A stretch of DNA of 64,000 bases from Elusimicrobiota bacterium. Lineage in GTDB: Bacteria > Elusimicrobiota > Endomicrobiia > Endomicrobiales > Endomicrobiaceae. Under the pieces are notes generated by a model. The model was not told the origin of the DNA and did not search any database. It saw nothing but the letters and a program-made list of their open reading frames with translations. Position 1 is the stretch's first letter; every line of letters begins with the position of its first letter. Made by a program: the position numbers and the translations under genes. The DNA is taken from assembly GCA_017528425.1 (NCBI GenBank), contig JAFXOV010000057.1:1-64000 (forward strand), given 5' to 3'. This document shows positions 2 through 49,338 of the stretch, piece after piece.

Positions 2-3000
2 AAAGTAAAAGGATTGGACGGCGCATCAGATTGGGATGATGAATACATATATTCGTTAATCTTGAACGAAGACGGAACATTGAAAGATAATTATTTGGAT
101 ATAGTAAAGGGAATAATAAGAGCAGATAAGATAGCGGAAGAACAAGCCGCAGCAGTAGCAGCAGCATTAGCGGAAGTAAAAGGATTAGACGGAACATCAG
201 ATTGGGGAGACGATTATATATATTCATTAATTTTGAACGAAGACGGAACATTGAAAGATAATTATTTGGATATAGTAAAAGGAATAATAAGAGCAGATAA
301 GATAGCGGAAGAACAGGCCGCAGCAGTAGCATCAGCGTTGGCGAAAGTAAAAGGATTGGACGGCGCATCAGATTGGGATGATGAATACATATATTCGTTA
401 ATCTTGAACGAAGACGGAACATTGAAAGATAATTATTTGGATATAGTAAAGGGAATAATAAAAGCAGATAAGATAGCGGAAGAACAAGCCGCAGCAATAG
501 CGTTAGCATTGGCGGAAGTAAAAGGATTGGACGGCGCATCAGATTGGGATGATGAATACATATATTCGTTAATTTTGAACGAAGATGGAACGTTAAAACT
601 TAACTATTTGGACATAGTAAAGGGAATAATAAGACAAGATCAGATGACGGAGCAACAAGCAGCGGAAGCAGAGGCTGCAAGAGCTGAAGCAAAAGAAGCT
701 TTATCTAAATATGGATATACTGATGATGCTATAGATGAATTATTATTTAAAGACGGGAAATTAAGAGATGACTATAAAGATGCTATACAAAATGTCATAA
801 ATATCCAAGAAGCATTCAAGACAGTGAGAGGAATGCAAGGAACGGAAAAATGGAGTGATGAATACATATATGCATTGGTTACAGATGGAGACGGAAAATT
901 CAAAAAAGATTATTTAGCATATGTAACCAACATAATAAACAATATAGCAGAACAAGAAAGAATAGCAAACGCATTAGCAGAAGTAAAAAAATTAAAAGAT
1001 GCAAAAGGTTGGGATGACGAATACATATACTCACTTATATTAAATGAGGATGGTACATTAAAAGATAATTATTTGGATATCGTAAAAGATGCAATAAGAC
1101 AAGGAGAGATAAACAACACCGTTGGTACCATAAGATATTGGTTAGAACAATATCAAAAAGGGAACACATCCGCTGCCGGAGACTTAGCTTACTATTATAA
1201 ACAATTGACGGAAGAACAAAAGAAGGCTTACTTCTCAGCAGCTGAAAGAGCATTAATAGAAAGTATAATATCACAAGGTGGAAGTTCCGGAGTGGATCAG
1301 ACCGGTGCTTCAGGTTGGACACAAGAAGAAGGACAGGGTGAGCAACAAGTTGGTGCAGGAGAACAAACAACCCCGATATCAGGAACGAAATTTAGAGCAT
1401 CGGACGTTTTAAGATCAGGGGAAACATATGCTTATAAATACAATTTTGATTTTGTAAAATATGATTCTGATTTATATAAGGCAGATAGTTTCTTCTCTTC
1501 GGAAAAAGTTAACTTTGATGCAACAGTTAGCAGTTTAACAGAAGAAATAAATACGGATCTCACAGAAAAAGTAACGGAGCAGTTATCTGCTTTCAAACAG
1601 TTCTGGAATGATAATGTTATCATAGGTACGATAGTAGCAGCTGCTATTGCGGTTGCAGCTGTTGTTTCTGTCGTTTTCCTTTTAGCACCTGCTCTTACTC
1701 TTTCCATACCTGTAGTGTTGATATCTCTTGCAGTCGGTGCAGGACTTGGCGGAATATATGTTGCTATTGCATCACAAACATCGTTACCTCTTCCTTTGTT
1801 TGTTGGAAAAACAGAAGAAGTTACGACCAAAAGAACGGAAGCACATTCTTATAGTGAAGTTAAAGATGGTGATTATATTGTTGAAACTACCAGTGAAGCT
1901 AAAAAGAATGATGAAGGAATTATTTCATATACATATAATAAGGTTATTAGAGATTCCAGTGGTAACATGGTTGCAGAAATAACCATTACATCTTCTTCGG
2001 AAGAAGGATTGCCGATAAGCTATACGGTTAGAAGTTACGATAATGGAGTTTTGAGTACTGAAGTTAAATGTGAAGATTCCACAAAACAAGAATATGTAAA
2101 GACATCTTATGATGATAGAGGAAACAAACAATTTGAAGAAACAATAGATATAAATGAAGCGGAACAGATTTATAACTCTTTGGGAGTAGGAAATTTAGCA
2201 ACTTCAATGGCTTCTTTTGCAACCGGAAAAGATACACTTTATCCGTACTTCTCTTTCTTGGATCCTAAACAAAACGGAGAAACTACACAATTGTACGATA
2301 ACTCTTTGGTAGGAATTGAAGTGTTACAGGAAGCTGTTCTTAGAGGAGATAAACAATCATCCGAAGAAGTTTTGAATTTGTTGGAAAAAGTAGCTTCTAA
2401 ACATTTAAGATTATCTGACAGAGAAGACGAAAACTATGTAAAGACCGGAGAAGCATTATGGGCAGGTATTTTTGCTGAATATTGCAGAAATTCCGGAATA
2501 GATTTCGGCAGTGAAGAAGATAATGCAAGAGCCAATGCTGCGATAGATACTATATTAGGCGATGTTGATAGTTATTTGGGAACAGTAGATATAGATAAAA
2601 ACGGAATGCTTGCTTTTGAAGGTATGAAATTTAATGAAGATCAAACTCATTGGATTTCTACGGAACATATGTTTGATGCCGCAATGTATTATGCATTGAA
2701 AGGTGATACAGATTCATTGAATAAAGTTTTAAAATACATAAAAACAAACTTGGTTAATAATGACGGAAGTTTAAAACAAGGATTAAACAACAATAACCAA
2801 GCAATAGATACATATACTTGGGGTTATATGATGTTGTCTTCTATAAAAGATATGAACTTAGAAGGCGTTGATGTTGATTCCGTATTTGGTGAGAATTTCT
2901 TGGATGGATTGTTAGATAGAATGATGTCATATAGAAAAGCAGATGGTACTTTTGCTTTTTCGGATATGCCTTATGGTGTTACCAGCGGCGAATTTACAAT

Positions 3001-6000
3001 GCAAGCTTATGCTGCGTTAGCTTCAGCCGGAAGAGAGGCAGAAGCAAATGATGTTTTACAATCTGCCGTAAAAGCCGGTTTGGTTGTTATCGAAGATGGT
3101 AATATTTATGTTAAATATACAACCGAGGCAGACAGCGGGAAAAACAGAGATTATGAAAATTATCCTGTTTATGCTGATAGATCATTAGCAGCGACAGCTT
3201 GGTTGAAGTTTGGTATGGAAGAACTTCAGTCTAATCTTAATGGCGGTTCAACAAATATTTTCACTATAGCAAATAATGGAAATATCGGAACAACAACTAA
3301 CAAAAATATAGAAACAATAGATTCAATAGTAACCACATTGAATAGCATAACAATAGATACGAAAATTGATGCAAAAAAAGCTACGGAAAATGCTTTGGCG
3401 GAAGTAGAAGCTGTCGGACAGCAGATATACGATTACTACGAAGCAGGTAATTTAACAGAAGCACAAAGAGATCAACTTTATGGCTTTGTTCAACAGAAAG
3501 CTATGGATATAGATTTGTCTGCAGGTAGCAGTGTAAGACAACCCGTAAATGCCAATGCCGTAAGAACTCAGGAAGCAATAAGAGAAGTCGGATACAGACA
3601 ATATACGGTAACCGACGGGAAATTTGAATTGGAAAAAACTGGAAGTACATCGGATAAAGGTTCATATTTGGGTAAAGTTAATACTCTTGCAACAGATAGC
3701 ACTTTCCAAGAGTCTGTGGCAGAGAAGATGTTTAATGCTATTGTTGATGAACTTAAAAAGGTATTAGGTTTAGATTTCTTAAACGGCAATATTATTGGAA
3801 AATTAGTAAATAAAATTATGGGAGCTGAAGAATATCAAAAGACGGACGATATTGCTACATGGTCTACAAGAGCAGTTAAGAATTATTTTTCCAGTGCTAA
3901 AAATTTTGATGATATTTTTGCAAGCCTTTCCGAAATGGATAAAGATGAACAAACAGAATTATTAACAAAATTAATAAATTTCTCTAATACTAACACTATT
4001 GCAAACTTGATAAATAATGTTAAGAATTCTAAAGACTTGGATGAAACTCAAAAACAGGAATTGTTGGGATTAGCTTATGAAAAACAAATAAGTTTAGCCG
4101 GCTCGTTAACAGATATAGATAAAATAATAAGATATATAAATAGTACGGATTCAAGCTTATTAACGGATTCGCAGAAAGCTGATTTATTAGGCAAAGCTTA
4201 TGAAAAAGAAATATCAGTTGCGACAACAATTAACCAATTGAAAGATAATATAATACCAAATATAAATAAATCAAGTTTAGATGATCAAACAAAAGCTTCT
4301 TTGTTTGAACAAGCATATTTAAAAGAAATAGAAGTTTCAACAAGTTTTGACAATATATATGGAAGAGTAAGAGATATACAAAACTCTGATTTGGATGATG
4401 CTACGAAAGAATCTTTAATTAATGTAGCACGTAACAGATTAAAAGAAATATATATTGCCAGAATGAATAAAGAAACAAACAGAGCGGAAATTAGAAAATT
4501 AAGCACAGAAATTTTCAATGCATCAAAAAATAAAAATAATACTAACTTGGGTGTAGAAATATTGACTCAAGATATGGTGGAAGATTTGTTTGGTGCTCTC
4601 GAAACAAGAGTATTTGCTTTGGATATTTCCAACGGAAGTTATGTAAGAAAGGGAGTAAAGTACAATGCTGTAATTACGAAAACTGCGATGCTCGAAATGA
4701 GAGATGCAGGAGATTATCCGAAAATTAACAGAGAAACCGGAGTTATGGATTCTGCTGATCCGTATATTACAAGAATAAACAATTACATAGCTGAAAATAA
4801 TTTAGAGGCTACCGTACAACAAAATATTAGAGCAGAAGTTCGTAAACAATTTGAAAAACTTTTAGGCGTTTCTTCCGAACAACTTTTAACGGATGAAGCA
4901 ATTGATAAAATGCTTACGGATGTTAATGTTGTTGCTTCAGATACACAAAAGAGTTGGGCAACAAAAGCATTAAATATCCTTTTCTATGATGATGACAGTG
5001 TTAATGCATTGGTGGCTAATATAAAAGATTTGAATTTGCCTAACGAAGAGGATGTTATTGCTGTTATAAACGATAAATATTATGACACTCTTAATGAAAG
5101 AATAGATAACGCCACTACAATGAATGAAGTTGATGAAATAGCCGGTATAATTGCATCATCTGCTATATTAAGTGATGCACAGAAAGAAAAACTTAATGAC
5201 AGTGTAGATTGGTATAAGACCGATTTGGTTGATTTAATTGCCGGTCTTGATAATGTTGAAAAAGTAGAAAATGGTTCTTATTTGGATAAGTCAAGCGGAT
5301 ATTGGGTAGGTAACTCAATAGTATATCCTAAAATATTTAGATATTTGGTAACCATGAAAGATGGCAGCAGTATGTATATTTACAGATATAGTGGAGGAGA
5401 AGACAGATTCTCTATTGCTAACAAGAAACAGACTTTTGAAGATTTATCTAACATAATAAATGCTTGGCAGGCCTTATCCGGAGAAGGTTATCAGGTAGAA
5501 TCAAAATTAGACAACAATAAAAATCAATATTTCACCATTACAAAAGATGGTGTTAGTGTTGATATTTATTTGTTTAATATTGATGGAAATTATATTTTTG
5601 ATCTTGACAAAACAGAAGCATTATTTGATTTGTACGCAAACTTCAAATCGGACTTGGAAGGTTTGAATGATGGCTACAGCGTAAATGTAAAAACAGATGA
5701 AAATAACTATGCATATTTTGAAGTAACAAGAAACGGAGTTACCGCAAAAATTTATCCTTATGATGAAAACAGTGAAATGATAGATATATTCGGTCAATAC
5801 ACCAGCAAACAAATAGCGGATGTTTATTTGTACAATGCAGGTGCTCCTCAAGATGCAAGTTTGAAGATGGAACAAAGATTGGATGCCGTTTTGTCTAAAA
5901 CAGTAGAAGATTTTGATTCTCTTGCCGAAGAGATAGATAATATCACACCTACGGTGGAAAGAGAATTAGCAAGTAAAGATACCTATTCTACAAAAAGAGA

Positions 6001-9000
6001 AGTACAAAATGCAGATGGTACAAAAACAGTTTTCGGTGTAACCGCAAGACAAACCACAGCAGGAATATTGATTACGTATACAAAACAAGTTTTTGATGCT
6101 TCCGGAAAACTTATTGAATCTGTAGAAGTATCTCATACTCCGAAAGGGAATGTTTATACGAAGACAATAATTGCAGAAGATGGTACACAACAACAAATTA
6201 CAAGATCGGATGAGTTTGTAACAGAAAATGGTACAAAAGGTATCGTTTATGCTAAAAACTTCTTTGATGAAAACGGTGAATATTTAGGAACAGAAGAATT
6301 TGTGGATTATCAGAATGCAAAATTGTCTGACGAAGAAGGCATTGTGTTCTATACGAAAGACAGTATCCTTGAAGATGAAGATGGTATATCCGTTATTGAT
6401 GTTGATACCACTATAAACAGAGATCAATTAGCAAGTTTCTTGAAAAAATCTTTGATTCAAAATCATTGTGATGCTTTGGGAAGAATGAGATATTTCATAA
6501 ACAACAATGTAGAAGAAGATAGTATTTTACTTGGAAAGTTCAATATAAACGGTGTTATAGAATACATATATATAGAAAATATTGTTGATAACGGAGACGG
6601 AACATATACTTTCGATGTAATTTCTTCTACAAATGACAAGAAGACGGATACAAGATCTCTCGGAACTGCAACAATAAGAATTGAAGACGAATACGGAAGA
6701 TTGGAAACAGCTCAGTATAAAGATATATTTGAAAATATTGAACAATTACATGGTAATGATTATTATACCGGAATTTCCGTAAGATATGATAAGAGCATAG
6801 AACAAGATTCTAAATATCAGCTTGTATTCAGAGACGGGAAATTTGTATACACATACGATGGTGAAGAAGTAGCTTTCTCTTATGGTTCATATCATGATAT
6901 TAAAAATGCTGAAGTAAAAACATTTAATGAATATGAATTCGGAATTATTTCTCCTGCTGTAATGTTTGTTCCTGAAACCGTATATATAGCAGATTTGGAT
7001 ATAACAGTATTATCTAAAGATTTATATAACTATGCACAAGGAAAAACAAAGGAATTGAAAGATACTGCAGGAAATATTGTATCCGGTTTAAATTTATATA
7101 AAATGGCTAAAGGTTTTTCCGAAACCGGTTTGTGCTTCGAAAAAGGTATTTGGTTTACGGACAGTAATGTTAAATTCAGTTTCGAAAATACCGATGAACC
7201 CGGAAAAGAAGATGAAGGTATGGCTACCGTTACTCATAAGCAAAATAATCTTTCCGATGGTAAAAATTACAGAGCTACACGTACTCAGGAACAAGGTGAG
7301 TTACCTGTTTATTCCGTAGAACAAGTTCCCGGAGAAAGTTCTCCGATAAGTGTATTCGACGGTATGACTTATACTCAATTACTTGATACAAATACTTCAG
7401 GATTTACCTACGATACAAATAATTTGGAAGCTTTGTTCGGAAATATACAAGATTATTGTGATTATAGTTTGCAAGATTTAACATGGACAAGAACAGATGT
7501 TTTGTCTCCTGAAGGAGATATTATACAAACCAGTTGGGCAGCATATTCCGAAGAACACGGTTCAACACCTGTTGTAAAAATAACTCCTGACGGTTATGTC
7601 GATTTTTCAATAGATTATGAATATAAAGGTACAGATGCCCAATATAAAGGAGAAACTTTGGATTGCGGTATCAGATACAACTTATTAAATACCGATATGA
7701 ACCAGGATCCTATCAACTTGGTATCTATTGCCGGAATCGGAACTGTTGTATTGGATTTATATAAAGGAACGGCTTTCATAGAAAACAGAAACGAAGACGG
7801 TTGTTTGGAAGAAAAGTATTATATCACCATGAAAGATACTTCAAGCTTGTTCTCTTATGGAAGTAACGATATAAATTGGCAAGATACATTGGATGAATAT
7901 TTTGGTGATTGGAAGGCAATGAAAGACAGCAGCACAATCCCCGGTTTAATCAACAGTGTAAATAATTTAGGCAACGGAAACATTTGGGAAGTAACAAAAG
8001 TTGAAGAATATTCTTATGAAGATGTAGATATACAAGACAGTCTTTATGCAGATAACAGAATGTATAAGGCTGCTTGGTTGAGAGCATTGGGTATTCCTTC
8101 TTATACAAAAACTTACTTGGTAGATGATAAAGGTCAAATCAAACGTCAAGACGATCCAATAAGCGAGAGCTATTTTAAAGGTATAAACTGGGATAAAGGA
8201 ACCATATACAGTGAAGAAAATATTTTCGCAAAAGTTGATGGAGAAGAAAAGAAAGAAGCTCAGGTGATTAGAACTTACCAAAGAGAAATGGATTTCAGAG
8301 GTAATGTTTTACAGCAATATGAAATTGAAAACGGTGTATATGTTTCAGGTATTATAGTTCCGGAATACGATCAGTACGGAATAGGTTTAAGATCATATTC
8401 TCTTGTTTTCGAAGATGGTAGAGCTTATGTTGCAAGTTCATCTGAATTTGCCGGCAGAGTAAGCGAAAGAACTATTGTTTACGATAACAACGTAAACACC
8501 GTAATGTTTGCACATGAAAGAACACAATTGGAAGACCAGAATCCTCTTGCAGTCGGTGATATGTCTGTTGATGATATAGATTTTAATATTTTTGAAAGAA
8601 TACAGGGAGATGTATTGGATTCTTCAGGTAATTTAAGAGATCCTGATACCAAAATTCAAACAGAAAAATCTTACATATTTAACAATGCGGAAGGTAGAAA
8701 CGTTATAACTTTATCGAATATTAGAGTTGATGCCAACGGAGATATTGAAAAAGCAGATCAGAATGACACGAATGCAACGGAATTTGAAAAGATGTTCGGC
8801 TATCCTGCAGTAATTTCGTTCAGCAGATATTCTCAGGAAGAAGAAACAAATATTGCAGATGAAAGAAGACAGTTGAATATCGGTCATCCGACCGTTGTTG
8901 TATCGTATCCTTATGTCGGAGAATTAGGTTTCCAACACTATGGAGTAACGGATGCAAACGGAGATGTGGAAGATGTCAATACTGCTATAGACGAAAGTAA

Positions 9001-12000
9001 CTATCTCACAAAAATGAACAATATGAGAATCGTTAAGACCACGGAAGGAGATAAAGATTATATATCCTTGGTTTACACAATGTATTCAAATCCTAATTTT
9101 AACGATGATAGTTGGTTCGCGGGAGTTACAGATAGATTAGCCTATGAACTTAATCCGAACTTCTTTAGAGGTCAAGCGGAAGCCGTAGCAAGATATCGTT
9201 CGCAGATGAGCGGTTTGGATACGGTAGTATTCAAGAGTGACGGATTAAAATATTTTGAAATTTACGAATATGCAATAACGGATACTCCGTTCGGAACATT
9301 TGCAAACAACAATTATGAAGTTAATATGTTGAACAGAAGAGGAAAATCTCAATACGCTTTCTTGTTGAATCCTGACAACGATGAATATTTTGGATTGACA
9401 AGAGGAGAAGAAGGCAAAGACGGACGCAATTGGCAACCTTTATTGGAAAAACTAAGTTATATAAATAATAATGTTAATTACGATGATTTATTGGCAAATG
9501 TTTCCAATGTTGAAACACAAGATCAAATTCCGTATGGAGTAGATATTGGTAACGGAGTAACATTAACGATAACTAAAGTTTATGCTACTACAGAGAACAC
9601 AACAAAAGGTAACGATTATTCTGTTACAAGTACATACTATGAACCTTCACATTATGTTGCTGATGAACATCCGGCATTCTTAGAATATTCTTATGTTTAC
9701 GGTAAATACGGAAACCTTGAAAGTAAAGATCAAACCGATGCTATTTCCGATTGGGGAAATGAATTAAAAGTTTTATGGCTTAATTTAACAAGATATGTAA
9801 ATCCTAAAATTTTGATAGGTTTGATGATTGCTGTTCCGTCTATTTTCGGCGGATTAATTATAGGAGCTGTTTTCAAGAAAAACAAAAAGAAAAAAACTTT
9901 GAGAGAAAAAGAAAAGGAAATAGAAGCAGCAGAGCCGCCGAGTGACGAAGAAAAAGCTGAACAAATGCAAAAGGTTGCCGGAGAAGAAAAAGAAGCCTTA
10001 GAAGAAAGAGCAAAACAAGCTGCAGCCGGACGTGTTGTCGAGACTCATGTTGCTGCATACAACTTTGATATGCAAAGATTCAAGAGAGCATTGGAAGGCT
10101 CTAACATTATGAATCAAAAACATGCTGAAATGTTTAAAGTTTGGGCACAACAGCATGGAAAAGCAATTACAGATATTAACAAAGCAAGTGATGCTGATGT
10201 ATTTGAATATATTCAAGACTTATTAAAAGAAAAGCTTCAACTTTTATCTTTTGAAGATTGGAAAGCCGCTTATGTTACCGAAGGTGATACAAGAACAGAA
10301 GCTCAGTTGAAGGAAGATTATGAACAATATAAACAAATGCATGCCAATGATAAAAATGATCAATCTGTTTTCTCCGAATACAGATGGTGGATCAAAAATG
10401 TTATGGCTGAAACATTGCCGGAATCCGAAAGAGAACAATTTATTAAAGATAATACCGGAAACTTTACAAACGAAGATTTATTATTGTTCTACTACATATA
10501 TATTGCTTGTGATTCTATGAGACAAGAAGCAATCGGTTTTAGAAATTTCTTGTTCTTTGAAGCAAAGAAAATGATTGCCGAAGGAAATACCGACAAAGTC
10601 GGTTACATGATAAATGTAGAAACATCCAGATTTATGAACTTTGTTGAGAAAGGAATAAGTATTCAAGAACAGATAAATCAAATGAAATATGCTGTTGCCG
10701 AAATGGACAAACAAAAAGGTTTGTTAAATAAAATAAGAAACTTCTCCAAAAAGAGAAAGATGAAGAGAGCAATAACATATTATGAAGCGCACAAAGCTCA
10801 AATTGATGAAGAAGAAGGTATATATAAGGCAGCTGTGCTTGGAAGTTATAACGGCTATAAGACTAACATTAAACCGCAAGAAAATGAAGGTTTAACCGGT
10901 AAATCGGAAATGAGTCCGAGATTCTTGCACTATACGAATATAATGGATAATTATTTTAAAAAGTTTGGTTTTAGAGCTTTGTTTGGTGTAAAAGGCGGTT
11001 TCGGCAGCAGACTTCCTACAAGACCTGATGAGAATTTCTCTTATTACGATATAGATGCAGACTTTAGAACACCGGAATATGTAACAAGATATATGTCGTT
11101 TATTAATAAGAATATTTCGGATGGCGTTTATTCCGAAGAACAATATGCAAAAACAAATAAGAGAAATTACACATTTGCAACGGAAGTAGTTCCTTTCAGA
11201 AGTTATATACCTTATGCTGATTTACTCCAGAGCTTAACAAATTCAAGAAAAGTTATAACTTTATGGCTTGGTAATTTGTCTGTTACACTTGGTATTGTTT
11301 CCTATTTTATAACGGGAGCTCTTATAGGTTCTATAGGTGCTGCACTTCCGGTTGTAGGAATAGGAATGCTTATAACCCTCGGTGTTCATGCTTTCTTGAA
11401 ATATACCGAATACCGCAGACAAAATCCGATGAATCCTATTAGAAGTCAATTTGGAAAAACAGTATACAGTTCTCAAGATAGAGATTTGGCTGGCAGAGAA
11501 GATGTTAAAACTGCCGGAAAATCTATGCTTGCAAGATATATACCGTTATTAACTATTAAAACAGCATGGGAAAGCGTTTTGTTATATTTTGCTATTGCTC
11601 CTATGGCAAAAGCCGGTCTCTTTACTTATGTTATGGATATTTCCATAAAAGGATTAGGCTTATCTTTCTTGGTTTCTCCGTGGCTTATAGGTATACCTGT
11701 TGTATTGGGTATAGCTCTTGTAATTAGAATGCATAAATCTGTGGATAAAAAAATTATTGCAGGTGCAACGGATTTAAAGACAGGAGAGATTGATAAATCT
11801 GCGGTTAAAGGAAAGAGATATTTGGCAGGTTTAGCATTGTTTGCTGCTCCCGGTGTTCTCATGTTGATACTGCCGTATATTGCATTAATACCCGGTATTG
11901 CCGGTCTCTTTTACGCAGCATTTATTTTGGCTCCTATAATAGCATTTACATTCTTGGATTTCTTTGGTTTTAACGATTTACTTAAATCCGTAAGCATCAT

Positions 12001-15000
12001 AATACAAAAAATAAAGAAAGGTGCTTTTGTCGGAAGAAGTTGGGGATCTTTCAAAAAGTATGCGATGCCGACAGATGACAGAACCGAAGCTCAACTTAGA
12101 GAAGCTTTACAGGCGGAAGGTGATAATGCAACCAAACAGGAATTTAAACAATATCAAGCTGATATTATTGCTGTTGAAACATCTGCAAAAGGTGAATCTG
12201 ATTTTGACAAATTATCAGATGAAGAAAAAATTAAAAAGTTCATAGAGTATAAACTTAGCATGACATCTTTAAATATGGCAGCTTTCTATGAAGATTGGAA
12301 ATCCGTATTCTTACCTGAAGATGTAGCTAAGAGACTTACCGAAGAACAAAAACAGGTAGCTTTTGCAATGTACTGGAACAGAGTGATTGAGGATTATTAT
12401 AATACTAACAAGATTTCTAAAGAAGAATATGAAACATATAGATTTGAATTTGCTGATTATGGTTATCAGGGTAATAAAGGTAAAGGAAATTTAGACAGAA
12501 GAATTGTAAAATATCCTGATTTGTCTGCAAAACCTCAAACGGATACTGCAAGAGAATTGTTCTTCAGATTGAACCAAGAAACCCAGGTTAGACTTCAAGA
12601 AGGATATAGACAACCGAACTTGGATGACATAAGTTTGAGTGCTCTTATACCTGCAAACGATGAAGCTGTTTCCACCACACTTAAAGAGTTGAACGGAGAT
12701 GTTGTTGACGAGAAAACATTGTTAACACATTTGATGTCACAATACAAAGGTGAATGGGAGAACATGCTTTCGAGATTGGATTATACCGTAGGTAAAGACG
12801 GCAAGAAATATGCAAGAGATTTCAGAGGCAGAATGAGAGAATTGACGGATGATGATGTGGAAGTCCTTGAAAGAATGAGAGATATGTTAGATAAAGATGA
12901 CGGCTCCATAAAAATGAAACAAAAACTTACAAGAGCAGACGGTTCTGAATTGCCTGATTGTTGGATGAAGGAAGAGATTATAAGATGGGCAGAACCTAAA
13001 TTGCAGCCATTGTCTCCTACACAAATCGGACTTGCAAATTTAAGAGATACATTGGATTTCTTAGCTGAAATAGAATTTGAATATTTAAGAGCAGATGGTC
13101 AGGAGTATGATGAATACTTGTTTGAACAAGCCGGTGGCTTGATACAGGGTGTTGATTATGCCGGATATCAACAGTTATTAAAGAAGAGTGCGGATAAAAC
13201 CATTACTGATTCCGAAAAAGCTTTATTGGAAAAAATAATAGCTGATTTACAAGCTCAAAAAGATCAGTATGAAACATGGGCACGAGAAGGAAAAGAAGCA
13301 GATAAAGTTGCACAGTATAGACAAAGAGGAAATGCCGCTTGGAAAAAGAGAGTACATGATTTGGTTGACAGTAAGAACTGTTTCCAAGCAATAGTAGGTT
13401 ATCAACAGTTTGGTAAACTTTATAACGATGGTTTGGGTGCAGATGATCCGAGAGTTGTGGCTCTGTTTAGAAATTTAAAAGAGTTTAGATTTCTAACGAC
13501 TCCTGTTATTCACGGAAGAACACATTCTCTTAAAGAATATGCACACCTTAAATACTTAAAAGAAATTGGTCGTGCTTCAGGCTATGATTTGGCATTGATT
13601 GCAGAAATGGAAAGAAATGGCCTTCCTCAAGAATGGAAAGATGAAATAGCTAAATATTCCAGTTTTGCAGCCTTATATAATGCACATAAGAATCGTACGG
13701 TAGAAGTAGACGGTAAGGAATATACTGTTGAACAATATATCCAACTGACAGTTAGAAATGACAAAAAGAAAGGCGATGATAAAATAACTAAAGCGATAGA
13801 AAAGAAGATGCCTTTATGGGCAGCCAAAATACAATTAGTTTCGTTCAGAAGATTGGAAGCACAAGATGTTTCTTACGAAAAATATAAACAATTGTTGCAA
13901 GATGAGAAAAACGGAATAATTACTACTGCAGACGAATTCTTACTTAAACAAATAAGAATAGAGTTGGATAAAGAGAAAGCAAAGTTTGAAAGATGGGAAA
14001 AAGAAGGAAAAGAAGCGGATAGAGTTGCACAGTATAAGTCTAAAGGCGAGAGTTATTTGTTCGAACAAAAAGACGGGTTAATAACCGTTGTAGTATTCAA
14101 CGATGCTGATGTGGAGTTTACACAATACAGCGATTATAAGGAATGGTTAAAACGTTATAACGAATTGTTAGATAAACAAGATAAGGGTACAATTACCGCT
14201 GAAGAGATAGTTGAATTAGATAGACTTTATAAAAAAATAGATACTCTTCAAAAAGCTATATTTGCCGAACAGACAAAGTATGAAATGTATGGCCCCAGAA
14301 TAGCCGAATACGACAGTGCAACAACAGAAGAAGATAAAATTAAAGCTATTTTCACGACAAGCGATGAATTGGCTTCTTTGGGTGTAGATTATGCTGCTTA
14401 CAGATCTTTGTTGGATAAAGAAGCTGACGATACAATTACCAACGAAGAAAAAGATTTGTTGGAAGCCATAGAAAATGCGATAGCAATGGAAAAAGACTTA
14501 TATGATATGCTGAGAGATAAAATAGCAGCATTTAATGCCGCTGCCACCAAAGAAGATAAAGTCAGAGTTATATTTGAAAAAAATGGCGGCTTCAACATAA
14601 ATTCTTTTGAAGAAGGTGCTACATACGCTACACCGTTTAACGGTATGTTTAACGGAGGTATTTACGGACAAGGAAAAGTAGATCACCACACATATCTCCA
14701 AAGCTATATCAGAAATAAATTCATATTGCAGATGGATATGAACCAGGGTATATATGCTCAAAGTGCCTTAACATTCTTCACTGCAATGCAACCTTTATTA
14801 CAAGATGATGAAGTTTACAATGTATCAATGCAAGAAAATATACCTACTAAGAGATTGACTCCGGTAGGTGCAAAAGGTGCTTTGGCTGAAGCCGGATTTA
14901 ATGCTTCTCACCAAGATATGAACAATATGTGGCAACTCCACATGTACGGACATCCTAACATCTTGAGAGCAAGCTTCATACAATCAATAACCGGTCAAAG

Positions 15001-18000
15001 TAAATCTGTAGTGAGTGAAGATGCTGCAGCCGGTAAATTTGCAAAGACAAAAGGCGGAAAGACGGTTACCGTTTTGGGAACTTCAGTAGAAAAAACAAGA
15101 GAAGCCGGAGTTTCTCCGCATACCGGAATGGTAAACAAATTCTCTATGGGATCTGCCGAGTTGTTGCAATCTCCTATGGAATATGAATATCAAAAAGCTG
15201 AAGTAGCAGCTTTTGGCAGAATTGGAAGTATTTTTGCAACATCAATTGATTTCTTTGAAGGTCCCGGATTCTATCTTAAAGAAAGATTGGTTGTCCCTGT
15301 TGTTAAGTTGTTTATATTCGGAATATTATTCTTGGGATTAAGTCCTTTTGCATCTGTACCTATAGCATTCTTGTTAGCTATATTCGGTGTTATCTTGTCT
15401 CAAAATGCAGGTCTTCCGGGATTAGTAACGAAGTTTACGACTTATGAGCCCGGAGTTAATTATGATCACAAGATTTTCGGACACGAGATACAATCTCCGG
15501 CTGTCAATGAATTCTTGAATTTCTTCGTTTCTATCGGAGTTTGGTTGAAAGGTTTGGTTGCAAACTTTAAGTTCTTTGTAACACAAATACAAACCCATTG
15601 GGATGGTAGAATAAAAGGAACAGAAGGAAGAGCCGCATATGTAAATACGGGAAGAGGACCGGGAGTAGAATTCTCGGATATATTGGAAGGCGGAAAAGTA
15701 ATGGATACTCTCTTGTATTCTCACTTTGCACCGTCTGTTTCTACCGTTTTTGTAATTCTAGCGGCACTTATATACAAAATTACACCCAAAACACAGGCAT
15801 TCTCTCTTATATATATATTGATTCCGTTTGCATTCATATTGGGACAAACACAATTGTTGCCGGGATACAATGTATTTGTGGATGGCCCTAAATTTGCATT
15901 CAAGAATTTAGGAAAAGAATGGAAAAAATGGCCTAAAGCGGTATTTGAAGAAAAACACAGTTGGTATTATGGAATAGTATCTTTTGCTGTATTGAGCATA
16001 TTAACACTTTTCGATATCATAGATACAATTGTCTACGGCTTAATTAAATTTGGTCCGAGAAGCCTTGGAAGAAATCTTGCAAACGGTAAGATTGGTTTGG
16101 CATTGATTTCTCTTGCAGAAACTATTGCTATTCCGTTTGTAGCCGTTGCACTATTCTCTGCATTACCATATTTAACCTTAATTGCTCCTTTAGCTGTAGC
16201 TGTAATATTTGGCGCATATGTTCTTTACTCTGCGATTACCGGGTTTATAAATCAAAGACAAGCTATCAGTGAAGAAAGAGAAGCAAGAACGAACAGAATT
16301 TTGGAAGATATTAAATTTGAATTAAAAGCGCAGGGAATATTAGATGTTGATTTCTCTGTTCAAGACGGTAAAGCTGTATTGAATTTGGACGGAATTGAAA
16401 GTGAAACTGAAAAAGCGGAAGCTAAAGCAATAGCAGACAGTTTAATGTTTGCGGCCGGTACGGTAGCCGGAGATTCTGGCAAAATAGAATATGATATATC
16501 ATCATTGTATGTTAGAAATACCAGAAACAGATTGAATCAGTCAGGTTTAGCAGCAGATAGCCCGATGTATAAGACAATAGACGGTTTGATAAAACAAGCG
16601 GAAGAAGCTGTTTCCAAGAATAGAATAAGTGCTGCAAATGAGATTTTGAAAGATATAAATAACTTGATGACCGTACAAAAGGAACTTGATTCGGCAAGAG
16701 CAGCATTTGAAAAGTTAGGATTGGAAGAATCCGATAAGTTGTATAAAGACATAGATGAATTGTTAAAAGAAGCTGAACAATCTTTATTGAAAAATAAAGC
16801 CGATAATGCTGGTGACTATATAAATGAAGTAAATAAGTTAATAATGAAATTCAATGATATTAACAAGAAAATCGAAGCTGCTGATAAGGCCTTTAAAGGT
16901 TTAAAATTAGATGAAAGTGATCTTAAAAAAGAAATAGAAGAATTGATTGAAGATGCAAAGTCCGAAGTAAAAGAAGGTAAGTTTAATGATGCCTATAGAG
17001 ACATAGAAGATGCAAATGATTTTATAGCGACTATTAAGAGTATTAATGATGCAAAAAAACAATTGAGCGAATTGTCGTTGGAAAAGGACGAAAAGTTATT
17101 TAAGAAAATAAACGGACTTTTAGAGAGAGCAGACACTTTGGTAGCTGCAGGAAAGACAAAAGCAGCTAATAGAAGAGTCAATAAAGCAAACAAATTGATT
17201 TCGAAAGAAAAAGAAAGAAGAGCATCTGTTAAAAAGATTGCTGAAGAATCTAAGAAGATTTCTGAAGAAATTGCTAACTTGAGAGCAGAATTAGAAAAAT
17301 TAGATTTAGATAAGAAGAGTCGTTTATATAAAGAAATAAACGGTCTTTTAAATGCTTCTGAAAAGAATCTTAAAAAGAATAAATTGAATTTTGCCGGTGA
17401 ATATTTAGATAGAGCACAAGAATTAGTAAAGTTCCAAAAGACAGAAGTTAACAGACTAAGAGCAGATGCAAAAAGATTAAAACTTGGTTCGGATAAACAG
17501 ATAAGTAAATTGTTCAAAAAAGCAGAAGATTTAGCTGCCGATTACAAGATAGGTAAAGCATATAAGAGATTAGAGCAAATAGTTAAATTGATGGATAAAA
17601 AGAGCAAAGGTTTGGAAATCTCTGATATTGCGGAAGAATCAGTGGAAGTTGCGGAAGAGGCAGTGGAAATTGCGGAAGAAGCAAAGGCTCCTGTAGTTGT
17701 GGAAACAGAAGCTGTAGCACCGGTAGTAACAACCGAAAAGAAAGAAAGAACGGAACAAGAACAAAAAGTAATAGATACATTAAACGACAAAGGATATATT
17801 ATTATCTCCGACGGTGTAATAGAAGTTACGGAATTGTTCGAGACATTAACAGACGAATTTGGTGAAGATAAAGTAGGAATGTTCCTTTCTGCCGATATGT
17901 CTGAAGATCCTGACTCAAGTGTTACTGTTGTTTATTTAGCTGAAAAGTTTACATCTGACGGAAGAAGAGATGATGGTATAGCAGAAAGAAAAATAACAAC

Positions 18001-21000
18001 TATACATACCGCTGAAGCTTTGAAGGACAAGACGTTAAGACTTGTTGCTGTCAGAGATTCTGACAGTTTGGAAATTGCTCCTTCTTTCGCTTCTGAAATA
18101 GGAAAAACAACACAACTTACCATGGATGATAAAGGTATAGTTTCTCTTGCCGGAGATTATAGTCAGGTCTTTGGTGATAATGCAACCGTAAAATTCATGG
18201 ATAAAGATAAAAAGACTATTAGAATTGTTGTTCCGGGACATGAATACATATATGATCTTGAAATTGTTGAAGACAAAGGACCCGGAGTCGGAGAAATAGT
18301 ACCTTCAAGTGAATCTGCAAGACCTTCCGGATCAGATGCGGCCGCAGAAGAAGAAATAAAACCTGCTATAGAGATAGTAAGTTCAGAGCCTGCGAAAGAA
18401 ACAGATGCGGTAGATTTGAGCAAGATGGGAGAGGCGGAAGCATTAGAGAAAACGAAGAGAGGAGCGGAGAGAGTATTGGCCGGAGAGGCAGTATTTGCGG
18501 TATTGGCAGCCGGAGCAAGCAGCAGAATGAGTGCGAAGGAAGCAGGTAAACATATACAAGGAATGTCGGAAGAAGCGACGAATATAGAATCAAAAGCAGC
18601 AGTACCTATAAATGATCAGGGAGATACATTCTTAAGTTTGTATATAGATAATGTAGTAAAGATGTTGGAAGAGATAAAAGGAAAGGCAACTGCGGCAAGA
18701 GAAGATACGAGTGCGATGAAAAACAATACGATATTGATAATGACAAGTGCGAGATATGAAGCAGAACAAGTAAAGATAATAAGAGAGACATTGAAGAAGA
18801 AGGGATATGAACTTAAAGGAATAAAAGGTAAAGCCGGCAGTTATACTATAGTAGATAAAGACGGTAATGTATTATGCAATATACAATTATTCAGACAAGA
18901 TAGCGGAACGGTAAAATATGCGACAGTTGAACAAGTAAGAAGCATGAGAAGTAAATATGCAAGTGAAGAGGAATATTATACAGCATTATATTTTGCATAT
19001 GAACAAGAGAGAGCAGGAAAGACAGAATTCAAAGAAGAAAGTTCACCGTTAGGACATGGAGAGTTCTGGCATCAGATGGTAGCAAAAGGAGTATACGGAG
19101 ATTTAGTAGGAAGAGGGAATAAATTCATATCGTTAAGGAATATAGATAATGCTGCAGCATTGATGAATGATGTATTGTTGCAGGAAGTAGCGACGATGGA
19201 AGAAGAGGGGGCCGACGTATTAATAGAAGCATCAAAGAATGCACCTGGATTAGCAGGAGGAGGATTCATAATAGAGAGAGATGCGGAAGGAAGAACTTAT
19301 GCAAGACAATATGAATTCCAAGCAAATCCTGATGTAAAGAAATCAGAGTTGTTTAATGATGCGGTAGGAATATTTAATATAGAAGCTATAGCAAGAATCT
19401 ATAAAGCAGACGGACAAAGTGTAGAAGATTTCTTTAAAGAGTACGATAGATTAGCAAAAGCAGGAGATATGGAAGGCTTGAGAGCTATATCGGAAAGATG
19501 GAAAAAGAAATTTAAAACATATCCTGCAATAAAACAAACGGGATCTGCATATTCAGTAGCAATACCTACGGGAGTATCAGTAGAAGGATTGACTGCAGAA
19601 GAAGCAGCGGGAATAAGAGCATTGGCAGGAAAGACAGTATCGGCAAGATTGTGTTCTGAAAAGACAGAGTCTTCAGCATGGGGAGTAAGTTGTATAGATG
19701 AAATAAGAACGATGTTGTCGCTAGTAGGAAACGGAAGTAATTTAGATGCGGTAATAGAGGGATTGAATAAAGAAGGTAAGACATATAGTGACTTAACATG
19801 GGCAGAGAAATTACCTATATTGAGGTCGTTAAGATTCTTAGGGACGAAACAATGGACATTAAGTGAAGATGCATTGATAAAGATAATGAATACATTGAAT
19901 GAAGGATTACCGGAGGGAGAAAAGATAACAAGCGTTGATGATATGAGAGTATTGTTAAGAGCGGAGACATATGTAGGAAACAAAGAGATAATACAAGACT
20001 ATGTAAGATACGTAAAAGAAGAACAAAGTTACTTGCCGCAAAATTTATTCGGAGAAGTAATTGAAGCACCTAAGACGGCTATGGGTGTAGCAGCAGAAAC
20101 AGCAACAGAGGCAGTTCAAAACACGGCTGCAACACCGGCTGTTCCTGTTCAGAAACAAGTTATAAATTGGATCTTTGGAAAAGGAGAAAATACAGTATCA
20201 AAGAAAGTATCAATTAATATTGAAGAACTTCTTGAAACAAAAGCAGGACATACGGATTTGGAAACTGTAAATGAACCTTTTGTAAGTTTAGAAGACAGAA
20301 AAGGAATAAAAGAAAGATTGGAAGCGAAAGGTGTAACCGTTAGAGAAGTTAAGAATGCGGATGGTACAACTACTTTGGAACTTTTTGCAGAAGGTAAGTT
20401 TGTAGGAAAAATAGATAGTAAAGGTTATTTGTCGAATTCAAGAGGACAACAATTGAAATTTAATGTTATGTTAGATGAAAACACATTGGATATTCATTTC
20501 CATTTGAATAAAAATTCAAGAGATTTGTTGAATCTTTTAGATGATCAAACAAGAAATCATATTTTAGAATCGGCAAAACTTGTATTGATGACAGACTTTA
20601 TATCTAATTTGACACTTGAAAGAAAGATGATGAAATTGTTGTTTAGTGAAGCATTAACATCTGCTAATATTGAAAACTTATCACTTGATAGTGACTTTAG
20701 GAGAGCGATAGAGAGTATAATCAAAGGTAACACTTTGAATTATTCCGGTTCAGAACTTAAATCTTTACTTAGAGTTGATTCATTGGAATTCGACGCTTTA
20801 CTTAAAGCCAATGCAATCGATAGTGTTAAGTCTGTCAGCAGACAAGAAGTTCCTTTGAACGTAAAAGCAAAAACTGATATAGCAAAAGCACTTCTTTCTT
20901 TTGGTAGATCAGGTGTAACTTCCATATTGTTAAGAGGTACGTATAATGCCGATACAATAAAGTTTATAAGAGAACACGGATTTGATGTTGTTGTTGAAGT

Positions 21001-22225: not shown

Positions 22226-25200
22226 ATGAACAGAAAATATACAACACTATTCAAAAAGATTTGTGCAACAATAACATCGGCGTGTTTTATCTTTACGATT
22301 ATCGGCAACAATTTATTTGCTGCCGTTAATGCCGACACTATGCAATCGAAAAAACAATATTTTGAATTAAAAGATACAAATGATTTGGATTCTCTTTTTC
22401 CGAGTAAGTACGGAAAAGTTGTTTCTTATAACAACAATTCAAGTGATACTGTTGTAATAAATATACAAGATTTGCATTGTGATTATTTCGTTCAAAAAAA
22501 CATAGCTTATCTGATAGAAGAGATATCAAAAAAATATAATATTGATAACGTTTATGTCGAAGGCGGAATCGGGAATGTAGATACAAGCTTATTGGCAAAT
22601 ATCAATCCTCAATATAAACAAGATATTCTGACAATGTTGCTCAAAGACGGTAAGCTTACCGGAACAGAATATTATTCGGCAATAAACTCTAAAACAGATT
22701 TGTTGAAAGGTGTTGAAGAAAAAGATTTATATCTAAACAACATAGTTCGTTTGGATACAATAATAAAATCAAGAGAAGAAATTTCTGTTTGTTTGTCAAA
22801 AATAGATACGGAAATAGATTTTTTAAAATCGAAATATTTAAAATCAAAAAATAAACAGTTTGATAAATTATTAAAACAATTTGAAAACCAAGAAATACCC
22901 CAAGATCAATTTATAATAGAGCTGTTCAATTATGCAAAAAGAAATAACATTTCTTTAAAAAATTATGAAAATTTACAAGTCTATTTAGGACTGTTCAATT
23001 ATTCGATAAATAATAAAAAGGTTCAGAAAGAATTAGTTGATTTATTAGGAAATATAAAGAAAGTTTTATCTTATAACGAGTATAACCAACTTGCGAAGTT
23101 AACATCGAATTTTACCGATGTTCAAAAATTAGGGATGTTTGTAAAAGAAATTTGTGTTGATAATAATATAAATTTAAGCAAGGAATATCCTAATGTAAAT
23201 AAATTTTTTGCTTTAAAAGAACAATCATTAAAATACAACCCGATAGAACTTGTAAAAGAAGAAAGAAAATTAATAGATGTTTTAAGAACATTTTTGTCCG
23301 ATACTGAAACGGAATTAGAGATTTCTTATATCAGTGATTTTGAACAATTTTATAAAGGTTACTTAACGGCAAGTTTAACGGCAACTCAATGGGAATATGT
23401 GAAGTTGGGCTTGGATAAATTTAAAGAATTATATGCGAAATATTCTGTTTCAAACGATATTGAAAAAATGGAAAAATATTCAAAACTTTTAACGGAATTC
23501 TACGATGTAAATACCGAAAGAAACCAAATTTTTATTAAGAAGATGGAATTATCAAATGGTTCTGTTTCCAATCATCCAATCATCCAATCTTCCAACATTC
23601 TATCTTCTGCAAAAAAGATAGTTGTTCTCGTTGCCGGCGGTTATCATACGGATGGAATAAGCGAATTGTTAAACAAAAAAGGTATTTCAAATATAACCAT
23701 AACACCCAATATAACAAATTCAACACAAAAATCAAGAACGGAATATGAATATTTAGTACAGCAACAGGCTATGTCGGTAAAACAAATGATAGCACTCGGT
23801 TTAATATCAAACAAATCACCGAAAGAACAGGTTTTGGCTGTGGCTTTATCTTTATTGAAAAACAGTAATTTGGACGGCATAAATATAAATATATTGGCAC
23901 AACAGTTGAATCAAATTTTCTCCAGGAATATAAATATTTCCTTAACGGAAGAAGGCAAACAAATAGAAGTTACATTTGAAGATGGCTCAACACAAATTAT
24001 AGACGTAGATAAAGATATTGCAACGGTTATATCGGATCAAGATATGCAACAGTTACCGGCAAGGCCATTACTTCAGGTTTCCGGTGATAAACTGCAAACT
24101 TTGTTAAAACAAGTAGCAAATACCGTATCAAAAACAACATTGAATTACGGAACGGATATTTTTGTTCCGCAAGTATATCAGATAAGTGAAGATGTTTGCT
24201 TGTTTATGGTTGAAAACAAATTATATTTGGGTAACGGAGCAGTATGGGAAATTGCAAATTCCGAATATGACGGTCAAGCATTGAATGGTGTTGAACCGGT
24301 AATTTACGAGTATATGCCCGAATATATGCAAAGGTCAATGTTGTCCAAGCAACGTAGAAATGCCATAAAAAGAAAATTGAATTTTAAGTCTATTATATTA
24401 AAAATAATTCCGGTTATTTTGGCAATAGCGATTACCATATCTGCGGCATCTTGCCTTTTGGTAAAAAAGACGGGGAGTGATAATATTTATGAACCTTATA
24501 CGATAGAATCTGTCGATTTGTCTAAAGAACAACAAAGCTTTAATGCGGAAATTGAAGATTTATTAGATCAATATTATGCCGGTAACGGAGCATATAAATC
24601 CTTTGTTTATAGTCTTATTAACGATAAATTGCCTTTGATTTCTGCTTCCGGAGATGATAAATATGCATTGGTAAATATTGAAAATTTGTATGATCAGGCT
24701 TTGATAGCATTGGCTTATATGCAAATAGGAGATACTTATAAAGCTGCGGAAGTTTTAAGTGCAATAGAATCTAAAGGTAATTTATACATGTCTAATTTGG
24801 AAAGAAGACAAAAAACCGGTGAAAGCGTTTGGGTTGGAATAGCCGCCGTTCAGTATAAATTATTGACCGGAGATAGTCGTTTTGACGGCTTAATAAATAA
24901 AGTGGATTCTTATCTCAACAAAGTTTATAGAAGTGACGGCTTTTATTACGGTGAACTATCAAACAGGTATGTTTCTACGGAACATATGCTCGATATTTTA
25001 GCTTATTTTAATTTAAGAACTTTGTTATATGAAGATCAAACGAGTGCTGCAAATGAAGAAAATAGAGCTCGTTTACTTGAAGCCGCAGAATATCTCTATT
25101 TAAATTTGTATGATTCTGAAACCGGTTCTTTTAAAAGAGGGTTAAATGATAATTCTCAGGCTTTGGATACTTATTCATGGGGAATTCAAGTTTTACTTTC

Positions 25201-30895: not shown

Positions 30896-31324
30896 ATGAA
30901 AAAGATAATATCTTTAATAATTACTCTTTTGTTTGTTTTTAATTTGTTGCCGTCTGTTTTTGCTATGCAACAAGAAACCGTTGATATAAACGGTTTTGAT
31001 AATTTTTCTATTGAACAAGTACAAAAAACATTTTCAAATACATTATCTCAAGAACAAGCTTCCGATAATCAGAACAATGAAGAACAAAATTTATATTTAA
31101 ATGAAATTTTTTGTAATGTTCAAAATATTTCATCTCTGAAATTAAGTTTTACTTCAAATGTTTTATTTTCGGAAAGCAACGGATATGGCTTAAATTATTT
31201 GTATCAGTACAAACTGTTTGAAAAAAAATTTCAATCGGATGGTATTAGCGAATATAAAATAAATTTTAATTCGTATATTGCTACGGCTTTGTTTGATATT
31301 TACGGAGTAATGTTTTATATATGA
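30896..31324 (+). CDS. Small secreted protein of unknown function
   Basis: 142 residues, starting four bases after the preceding stop. A classical signal peptide is present (MKKIISLIITLLFVFNLLPSVFA). The mature part is Asn/Gln/Phe/Tyr-rich with no recognised domain. It is the last gene of the FtsH-like operon; a terminator begins six bases after its stop. Confidence 0.75.
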   Translation: MKKIISLIITLLFVFNLLPSVFAMQQETVDINGFDNFSIEQVQKTFSNTLSQEQASDNQNNEEQNLYLNEIFCNVQNISSLKLSFTSNVLFSESNGYGLNYLYQYKLFEKKFQSDGISEYKINFNSYIATALFDIYGVMFYI

Positions 31325-31329
31325 TTATA

Positions 31330-31359
31330 AGGCTGACATTTTATGTCAGTCTTTTTTTT
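31330..31359 (+). terminator. Rho-independent terminator between the secreted protein gene and the third giant gene
   Basis: AGGCTGACAT (31330-31339) pairs with ATGTCAGTCT (31343-31352; one G-T pair) around a TTT loop and runs into eight T. It lies inside the longest possible frame of the following gene, so that gene must start downstream at 31372. Confidence 0.9.
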
Positions 31360-31371
31360 ATGGAGATAAAA

Positions 31372-34300
31372 ATGAATAAATTAAAAAAAATGGTATCTGC
31401 GATAATTTCGTTATCGCTAATGATTACAACCTTACCTGTAAATTCTTTTTCCGCTTCATACCCTGTATTACCGCAATACGATTTCAGTAATTTTGCAAAA
31501 ATAACATCGGCCAATTTTTGTGAAAACAGTGATACTACTGTTATAAATATTCAAGATTTGCATAATAATAAAGAAGTTCAGGATAACATTTGTAAGTTAT
31601 TGGAAAAATTAAATTCTCAATGCGAAAACTTGGATGTATATATAGAAGGTGCAAGTATTCCTATAGACTACAACGAACTTTCATCTTCTATGACAAAAGA
31701 GGAAGTGTCTGTTTTAATGAATGCCTTATATGCTAATGATAAACTTTCCGGTGCCGAGTTTTTCGGATACCAAAATAATAAAGTATTAAAGCCGACGGAA
31801 CAAAAAAATATTTATGACGAAAATATACAGAATTACTCTTTCCTAATAAAAAATAAACAAAAAATAAACGAACTGTTGAACGAGAAATATACAAAAATCA
31901 GAAGATTAGATGATTATTTGGAAAAAGAGCAAAGGAAAACTTTAAAGTTTTATAATGCTTACTTGAATAAGAAAATATCTTCTGAACAATTCTATGGAAA
32001 AATACTTCAAGAATTGAACAGAAGAAAAATTTCTACGTTAAGATATATAAATACAAAGTTGTATCTGGATATCTTAAATGCAAACAAGACTATAAATCAG
32101 AAAGCGGCGGAAAGACAACTTCAGACGGTTGTTACCAATTTGAAAAATACTATTACATACCAAGAATATGTTAATCTTTTGCAAGATTCAAAAAACTTGT
32201 CGGACATAAATGTTATTTTTGCTTACTTGTCTGCAAATATTAAAGACTCCGATAAAATTACAAAATATCCGGATTTGTTTAGATTAATAAGTTTAAGAGA
32301 ATTATCTTCTTTAATAAATCCGTTGGAGTTAATCGAAGAAGAAAATCAAATGATGGAAGATATTTTGCTCTCTTACAGCAAAACTACCGGTAATAAGGAT
32401 GTTGTATTTATAAATTTGTTTTTTCAGATATATAAAAAATTATTGTTGGCAAGTATATCTTCGAATGAGTATGTTTATTATAAACAAAATTATAAGAATT
32501 TTGTCAGGCTTTATTCCAAATATGTTCAGAATGATGATTTGTTTAATTTGTACAGATACCTTGTGGTTGCGGAAAACTTTAACGAATTAAATATTCAAAG
32601 AAATATAACATTTGTTAATAGTCTCGTTCCCGAAAATAAAAACGATGAAGTAAAGAATAATTACAGAGGTAAATTTTATAATATAAATAAGATTTTATCG
32701 GGTCTAAACAAAATAAAAAATATTAAAGTTATAATTTCAGGCGGATTTCACACGGAAGGTATAAATGAACTTTTGAAAGCAAAAAAAGTTTCCTATATTA
32801 CTCTCACACCTAATGTTAAAGAAACGGATTCCTTATATGAACAAAATTATTTGGATAGTATCGTGGAACAAGCCGAAGTTGATATAAATGCAATATCAAA
32901 AAAACCGTTTTCCGAACAGGCACGTAATATCATAGCCGATAATATCGTTTCTTCTTTGGGTTCTATATTGGAACAATTGAAAACGAAATCCGATATAACA
33001 GCCGAAGAAATTGAACAAATTAACAAAATTATTGAAGATATTATTAAAGCAAATGAAATTGATGATATTGTTCAGTTTGATATTAACAGTAATGGCACGG
33101 CAACTGTAACTGTTGAAGGTAAAGTTTATACTTTAAATTATAAAACCGGCACAGTAAAATCCGGAGACAGCTTTGCTACAACGCTTGCTAAAAATATAAA
33201 AATATTAATAAAGGAAGCTTTTAAGAACCCTTCAATAAGATCGTTTTTGGTGGTTAATGCGCAGGATAAGAGACTAACTAAAACCGTTTCGGGTGAATAT
33301 GTAAGGTTGGCGGAAGAACTTTTGATGAATCATAACATATTACTTCCCGGTATTACCAATTATGTTTTGGAAAAGATTTTCTTGGATCATGATACAAATG
33401 GAGATATTAATGAATATGAAGTCATAAATTCGGCATTAGAAAATGTTGCTCAAAGTGAGTTTGCTAATGCGGAAATAATTGTAAGTAAGACCGGAAGCCT
33501 TTTCGGTGTTACTCCGGACGGATACGGAAAAACAGAAGAATACGGTTCGTTGTTTTATGTTGTGTGGAATAAAAATGCAAGCGGTAATTATGAAGCAAGC
33601 AGAATATTAATATCTGATGTTTTTCTTAAGTATTTAGAAGATCAGGGATATTCTAAAAAAGAGTTGGAAGAAGTTTTCAGAAATATATTTATTCATGAAA
33701 GATTGGAAATGCTTGCGCTTACCGGACAAAGTGAAAGTTTTAACAAATATGTTTTATCACATAAACTTTCTGCCACGTCCGACTCGTTTCATAAATATAT
33801 AAAGTCCGTTTCGTTCAAAAATATGCTTGCAGAATACAAAATGAGTCCGAATAATCATGAAAAGCAAAAATCCCTTTTAAATGTATTGGATAATCTTATA
33901 TCTTCTGTCAATAGGGAAAATTCCGAATATTCCGATGTTATTTCCGTTTCTTCTCTTGAAGACGGTAATGAAGAATACACAGAGGACGTTGTGGAAGCTT
34001 TCTTGTCAATAAGAGCCGGAGATAATGATATTATTGCAAACTACAACGAAAAGTTGATAGCAAAAATTGTTTCTTTAATAGACAATTTAATTGGTTCCGA
34101 ATCCTATAAAGACGAAAATCAAATAAATGATTTGATAGATAATATAAACAGTATAACCATTGCTTACAGAAAAGAAAGCAGATATATTATGGATGTTAAT
34201 TTTGCAAAAGAAATAAAAGAGGCATTGGCTAAAAATTTTGATATACCTTCGGAAAGAGTTAACGAAATATCCATAAATGTTTGCGAGATACAAGAAAAAG

Positions 34301-49307: not shown

Positions 49308-49338
49308 GTTATAAAATTACATTTATAGGGTATAATAA

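Follow-up and report, generated by a model that had tools for sequence, protein, structure and literature searches.

A probable bacterial GT48 glucan synthase module within a giant protein of Elusimicrobiota

Introduction

Fungal wall glucan and plant callose are both made by GT48 enzymes, and GT48 is the target of the echinocandin antifungals. The literature that we searched treats GT48 as a eukaryotic family, and the 1,3-beta-glucan known from bacteria, curdlan, is ascribed to GT2 and not to GT48 (PMC6821405). The locus described here, from an Elusimicrobiota bacterium, raises the question of whether a GT48 synthase is also encoded in bacteria. The window, meaning the whole stretch of 64,000 nucleotides that was analysed, makes up the opening 64 kb of a contig that is 68.8 kb long and belongs to a 2.08-Mb draft genome. 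An earlier note had proposed that a giant protein encoded there contains a distant bacterial GT48, with the motifs of the family in their usual order between two membrane clusters.

The giant open reading frame

The window opens inside a very long reading frame, in which the following parts were located outside the proposed synthase module.

2..22159, + strand: giant ORF, 3' part, 7385 codons, open from the first base and truncated by the contig start
3..660, + strand: 171-bp (57-aa) tandem repeat, the assembly break point
1607..1774, + strand: hydrophobic stretch, probably two membrane helices, ahead of the large extracytoplasmic region (hydropathy)
1799..3721, + strand: extracytoplasmic domain, predicted alpha/alpha toroid (predicted structure, pLDDT 66.5)
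9809..9865, + strand: single membrane helix (residues 3270-3288), followed by a K-rich (inside) segment
20402..22156, + strand: C-terminal domain of unknown function, also conserved in other giant ORFs of the family

The 5' part of the ORF was located on a second contig of this genome (G000:C58), as a terminal frame of 3011 codons. Since this frame shares 89% identity with the N-terminal part of a 10,563-aa relative (G314), and ends in the same 171-bp repeat that opens the window, the giant protein would very probably comprise at least 10,396 aa, as judged from these sequence matches; the junction between the window and C58 is itself absent from the assembly. In this 5' part, a DEAD-type domain was matched only weakly, and the match was set aside because a PDB search did not back it. 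The protein begins with a domain of ~500 residues that is carried at 18 places in the genome, followed by a membrane passage, a region of ~2,700 residues, the GT48 module, and a cytoplasmic tail holding helical segments, a PF01704 domain and the conserved C-terminal domain. The ~2,700-residue region was placed outside because a K-rich stretch follows the helix at residues 3270-3288, so that its side of the membrane is inferred. Searches of NCBIfam gave no matches for the N-terminal part, the C-terminal part, the second large ORF of the window or most of the third.

A GT48 module between two membrane clusters

The motifs named in the earlier note are all present, in the order it gave and in a single open frame (2-22159, + strand), and both flanking membrane clusters were recovered; the coordinates it assigned to the module (residues 3740-5420), in residues and in nucleotides, are correct.

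11264..11986, + strand: first membrane cluster (residues 3755-3995), six hydrophobic helices counted by eye, corresponding to TM1-6 of FKS1
12599..15271, + strand: GT48 glycosyltransferase domain (Pfam, alignment, predicted structure)
12644: LIPANDE, with E-W-E-N just downstream
12983: RWAEPKLQP
13118..14660, + strand: GT-domain stretch with helical-hairpin insertions absent from FKS1, and a conserved YQQFG segment between them
13400: YQQFGKLYND
14735: DMNQ
14945: YGHP
15008: VVSED
15260: GPGFYL
15263..16237, + strand: second membrane cluster (residues 5088-5412), about seven to eight helices, with the TGRG segment
15644: NTGRG
15713: LYSHFA

By hydropathy, the window thus meets the expectation of a GT domain held between two membrane clusters, as in the fungal enzymes FKS1/GSC2 (CAZy GT48, PF02364), which also have six helices ahead of the domain and the same order of motifs; the FKS1 topology used for the TM1-6 comparison is that of PMC12715860. 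When a 2000-aa slice of the window was searched with Pfam, PF02364 passed its curated cut-off of 37.2 bits marginally, at 38.4 bits (E 6e-10); in a whole-genome scan, the module scored 28.7 bits. The match spans profile positions 269-509 only, the N-terminal part of the domain being recognised only by way of relatives. PF02364 had no match in 14 control genomes. Plant callose synthases (GSL/CalS), which are also GT48 enzymes, may have motifs such as DMNQ, YGHP, KGRD and TGRG in common with this family.

Relatives in Elusimicrobiota

Across 341 Elusimicrobiota genomes, PF02364 matched 11, with scores of up to 216.8 bits and four relatives well above the cut-off, and a profile built from eight relatives matched 19, mostly from Endomicrobiaceae, the window's own family. 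The earlier note had put forward a PF02364 search as a check on its claim; the profile does match, narrowly in the window and strongly in relatives, and together with the recurrence in 19 of the 341 genomes this match supports a distant bacterial GT48 in a giant protein. The relatives lie in long ORFs, the longest among those closed at both ends having 11,689 aa.

Eukaryotic contamination of the metagenome assembly would be suggested by the fact that GT48 is otherwise described from eukaryotes, and by the draft state of the genome. We give this explanation practically no weight, given an uninterrupted frame of >7,000 codons on a contig that also carries FtsH, LptF/LptG, UvrB and RND efflux genes, a locus order that recurs in further genomes of the family, and the relatives in 19 genomes.

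Named records place the group in class Endomicrobia of the Elusimicrobiota; among them are Candidatus Proruminimicrobium quisquiliarum, Candidatus Endomicrobium species from termites and, for two genomes of the window's own genus, the MAGs Red_deer_4_mag_78 and RUG10662. That the window organism lives in a gut of the rumen type is inferred from these titles. A 16S search of the window's own genome gave no match. Some Endomicrobia are endosymbionts of flagellates in termites (PMC11257099), and the class is enriched among rumen-ciliate-associated bacteria (PMC6217230). No relatives were found in phage, plasmid and viral-contig searches. A wider contig scan used one narrow peptide pattern, and does not show that GT48 is absent from other phyla.

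Catalytic residues, fold and selection

When the best-conserved relative, G310, was compared with the PDB, only yeast FKS1/GSC2 were matched (E 1.7e-35), and a profile of eight bacterial rows likewise reached only FKS1/GSC2 (E about 1e-36) and no GT2 chain. A plant GT48 chain was not returned from the PDB. Taken by itself, the window sequence lies at a large distance from FKS1, with 22% identity in the aligned columns and a phmmer E of 0.18; identity to FKS1/GSC2 is 20-30% over such columns in general.

The catalytic and donor-site residues of FKS1 have been listed as E1221-D1222, D1102-x-N1104, K1082 and E851 (PMC12715860). All 20 aligned bacterial sequences retain the equivalents of E1221-D1222, D1102, K1082 and E851, and 18 of them that of N1104 (19 of 21 rows with FKS1; window included), the exceptions being the two most distant rows. 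In the 17-row alignment A2, E817 D818 and D723 N725 are invariant, as are the equivalents of K1082 and E851. Among the proposed UDP-glucose contacts of FKS1, the window retains E851 and K1082, and has N in place of Y849 and H in place of N1085. Part of a second group of relatives has DMNMG replacing DMNQ. No cysteine occurs in the membrane clusters of the window and G310, so that the two extracellular disulfides on which FKS1 activity depends are absent, and the module should therefore be regarded as GT48, but outside the narrower FKS1 subtype. It differs from FKS1 further in its helical insertions and in forming part of a protein of >10,000 aa, and no Rho1-type partner is known for it.

An AlphaFold model of window residues 4190-5389 (pLDDT 73.6, pTM 0.67) was used for a fold search, in which Fks1/Fks2 came first (E 2e-7, prob 1.00) with low global TM-scores of 0.1-0.26. 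BcsA and the hyaluronan, chitin and plant cellulose synthases came next, all top matches being membrane polysaccharide synthases. Because the TM-scores are low, the search supports the fold class and not the detailed model. A predicted fold lacking the GT-A-like core would have counted against the earlier proposal, and no such refutation was obtained.

The presence of GT2 enzymes behind Fks1 in this search could point to a GT2 member (of the cellulose, hyaluronan or chitin synthase type) that is only GT48-like in appearance. Such matches are expected, however, because the cellulose-synthase-like fold is common to both (PMC12715860), and BcsA and curdlan synthase resemble the module in the membrane-embedded processive synthase fold that its model suggests, with UDP-glucose as donor in known members, but show no sequence-level match to it. 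With sequence profiles that reach FKS1/GSC2 only in the PDB, and Pfam giving Glucan_synthase and no GT2 family on the slice, this reading is hardly credible.

Between the window and G317, dN/dS was 0.143 for the GT core and fell to 0.036 in the catalytic part, where purifying selection is very strong. This value, and catalytic residues that are invariant across very diverged relatives, make it very improbable that the domain is degenerate and serves as a mere membrane scaffold in a giant adhesin-like protein, as the insertions within the GT domain and the marginal Pfam score of the window member might otherwise suggest. At the level of sequence and profiles, these comparisons demonstrate that the module is homologous to eukaryotic 1,3-beta-glucan synthases, conserves the catalytic residues, has the membrane-GT-membrane layout and evolves under purifying selection.

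A fused uridylyltransferase-type domain

Downstream of the GT48 module, in the same frame, PF01704 was matched at 32.9-33.8 bits, over its curated cut-off of 22.

18482..19840 (outer borders approximate), + strand: UTP-glucose-1-phosphate uridylyltransferase-type domain, PF01704 match at 19019-19411

The best PDB match of the domain was a UTP-glucose-1-phosphate uridylyltransferase (E 3e-4). The domain goes unmentioned in the earlier note, whose range ended ahead of it. PF01704 and GT48 occur in one ORF in three genomes (the window's, G315 and G308), and we know of no other case in which GT48 is joined to a UDP-glucose-making domain on one chain. The NGGLGSS loop, which we take to be typical of the PF01704 family, is visible in the G315 domain. 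The copies of the window and G315 do not recognise each other in direct sequence comparison, and must therefore have diverged very fast or been gained separately. Within the family, PF01704 and GT48 co-occur (6/11, Fisher p 0.005), but reduced endosymbiont genomes confound this association, and we gave it little weight. The genome also encodes a free-standing NTP_transferase, which at 292 aa has the size of GalU and looks GalU-type, so that a tethered donor source would add to the general supply and not replace it.

The fused domain also bears on whether the enzyme might be a GT48-derived synthase with a changed donor or linkage, producing another polysaccharide (e.g., a beta-linked hexosan or an amino-sugar polymer). 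The replacement of FKS1 Y849 and N1085 in the window clade, the DMNMG variant and the deep divergence inside the family could be explained in this way, and PF01704 spans other UDP-sugar pyrophosphorylases too. The core catalytic residues and the GT48-typical D.N motif are nevertheless retained, and among solved structures the fused domain comes closest to UTP-glucose-1-phosphate uridylyltransferases. We consider a changed donor or linkage unlikely, but it cannot be dismissed in the way that the explanations above can.

Proposed function

We consider it likely that the window encodes a bacterial GT48 membrane synthase-translocase, set in a giant envelope protein, that exports a beta-glucan, probably 1,3-linked. 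Both product and activity are inferred: a beta-glucan is a reasonable inference, and no product, linkage or activity is visible from sequence. Donor, linkage, export and coat function are likewise suggested by analogy with known enzymes. On the analogy of FKS1, UDP-glucose would bind at the cytoplasmic face (PMC12715860), and it may be made in part by the uridylyltransferase-type domain of the same chain. Glucose would then be transferred by inversion, with the help of the E-D pair and the aspartate of DMN, onto the growing chain, which the GT-A domain would elongate, and the membrane helices may form the channel through which the beta-glucan, most likely 1,3-linked, is extruded.

The large outside part contains the predicted toroid, which has weak fold similarity to the putative glycosyl hydrolase 3k11 (E 2.7e-5; model pLDDT 66.5), and invariant motifs STEHM..D, DT..WG and S.E. 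This glycosidase-like toroid might trim, hold or anchor the beta-glucan as a surface coat.

Origin of the bacterial module

A tree was built with more distant Elusimicrobiota sequences as the outgroup and yeast as the only eukaryotic sample. FKS1 was placed at the base of the bacterial ingroup, beside G310 and G291, without support (76/58), and a grouping of FKS1 with the outgroup was not rejected (p-AU 0.365). Because yeast alone represents the eukaryotes, this tree does not decide which way a transfer between bacteria and eukaryotes would have gone, and the two alternatives of the earlier note, ancestral or transferred, both stand. The diversity of the bacterial family is about equal to its distance to yeast FKS1, and since this is so, a recent transfer from fungi appears unlikely on sequence grounds. 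That a deep bacterial GT48 branch constitutes a one-chain glucan factory (donor synthesis, polymerisation, export and outside processing) ancestral to the eukaryotic callose and glucan synthases is a possibility that we raise only with considerable doubt.

No description of a bacterial GT48 was found in the open-access literature; public family databases were outside the scope of this search. The enzyme family is already known; what is new is its bacterial host, its position inside a giant chain of many domains and its union with a donor-sugar domain. Bacterial members would make the origin of the family testable and may give simpler study systems, and through them, part of the giant proteins found in host-associated bacteria would for the first time have an assigned function. 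The giant ORFs of Omnitrophota are similar in having membrane helices and few annotated domains, and in coming from bacteria with host-dependent traits (PMC10066038), but they belong to another phylum, and that study makes no mention of a glucan synthase or glycosyltransferase.

Neighbouring ORFs and other observations

Two further large ORFs follow the giant ORF in the window.

22226..28186, + strand: second large ORF, 1986 aa, sharing the N-terminal domain and the toroid with the giants
31321..40914, + strand: third large ORF, 3197 aa, sharing the N-terminal domain

A counterpart of the second ORF adjoins the giant ORF in four relatives (G314, G315, G318 and G311), and an ORF of 3.2-3.4 kaa occurs in the same order in two of them, G314 and G315. 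The large-ORF family defined by the common ~500-aa N-terminal domain, with its 18 places in the 2-Mb genome, includes window positions 22247-24016 and 31489-33024. The domain has the motifs NIQDLH..., EG..G and GGYHT, and by eye is reminiscent of the ChaN/TraB (Tiki) superfamily.

Other domains were seen in GT48-bearing giants elsewhere in the phylum. An 8368-aa ORF of G246 (uncultured Elusimicrobia AM-2014_bin-1828) has a SecA-like motor domain (L018:4146-6848; PDB SecA E 5.6e-11), which may mean that a translocase motor has become part of a giant envelope protein by fusion. In the same genome (L019:4856-10552), a Glycosyl hydrolase family 2 TIM-barrel match lies behind the GT48 module (28.6 bits, cut-off 21). 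In G315 (L072:8056-16035), a calcineurin-like phosphoesterase (54.2 bits) and RamC_N (33.4 bits) lie between GT48 and PF01704. G296 (C43, C13) and G302 (C33, C101) each carry two GT48-type giants, which fall in different tree subgroups. More distant giants (L021 of G228, G161:C6 and G162:C499) are at the edge of GT48, with DANT, DFDM or DTDM replacing D.NQ, YGHS or YGK, and SED or AED, and are useful outgroups. Farther along the window, at 48081-50706, an aldo/keto reductase with a 4Fe-4S domain adjoins a 455-aa protein with many 4Fe-4S motifs, a putative redox module.
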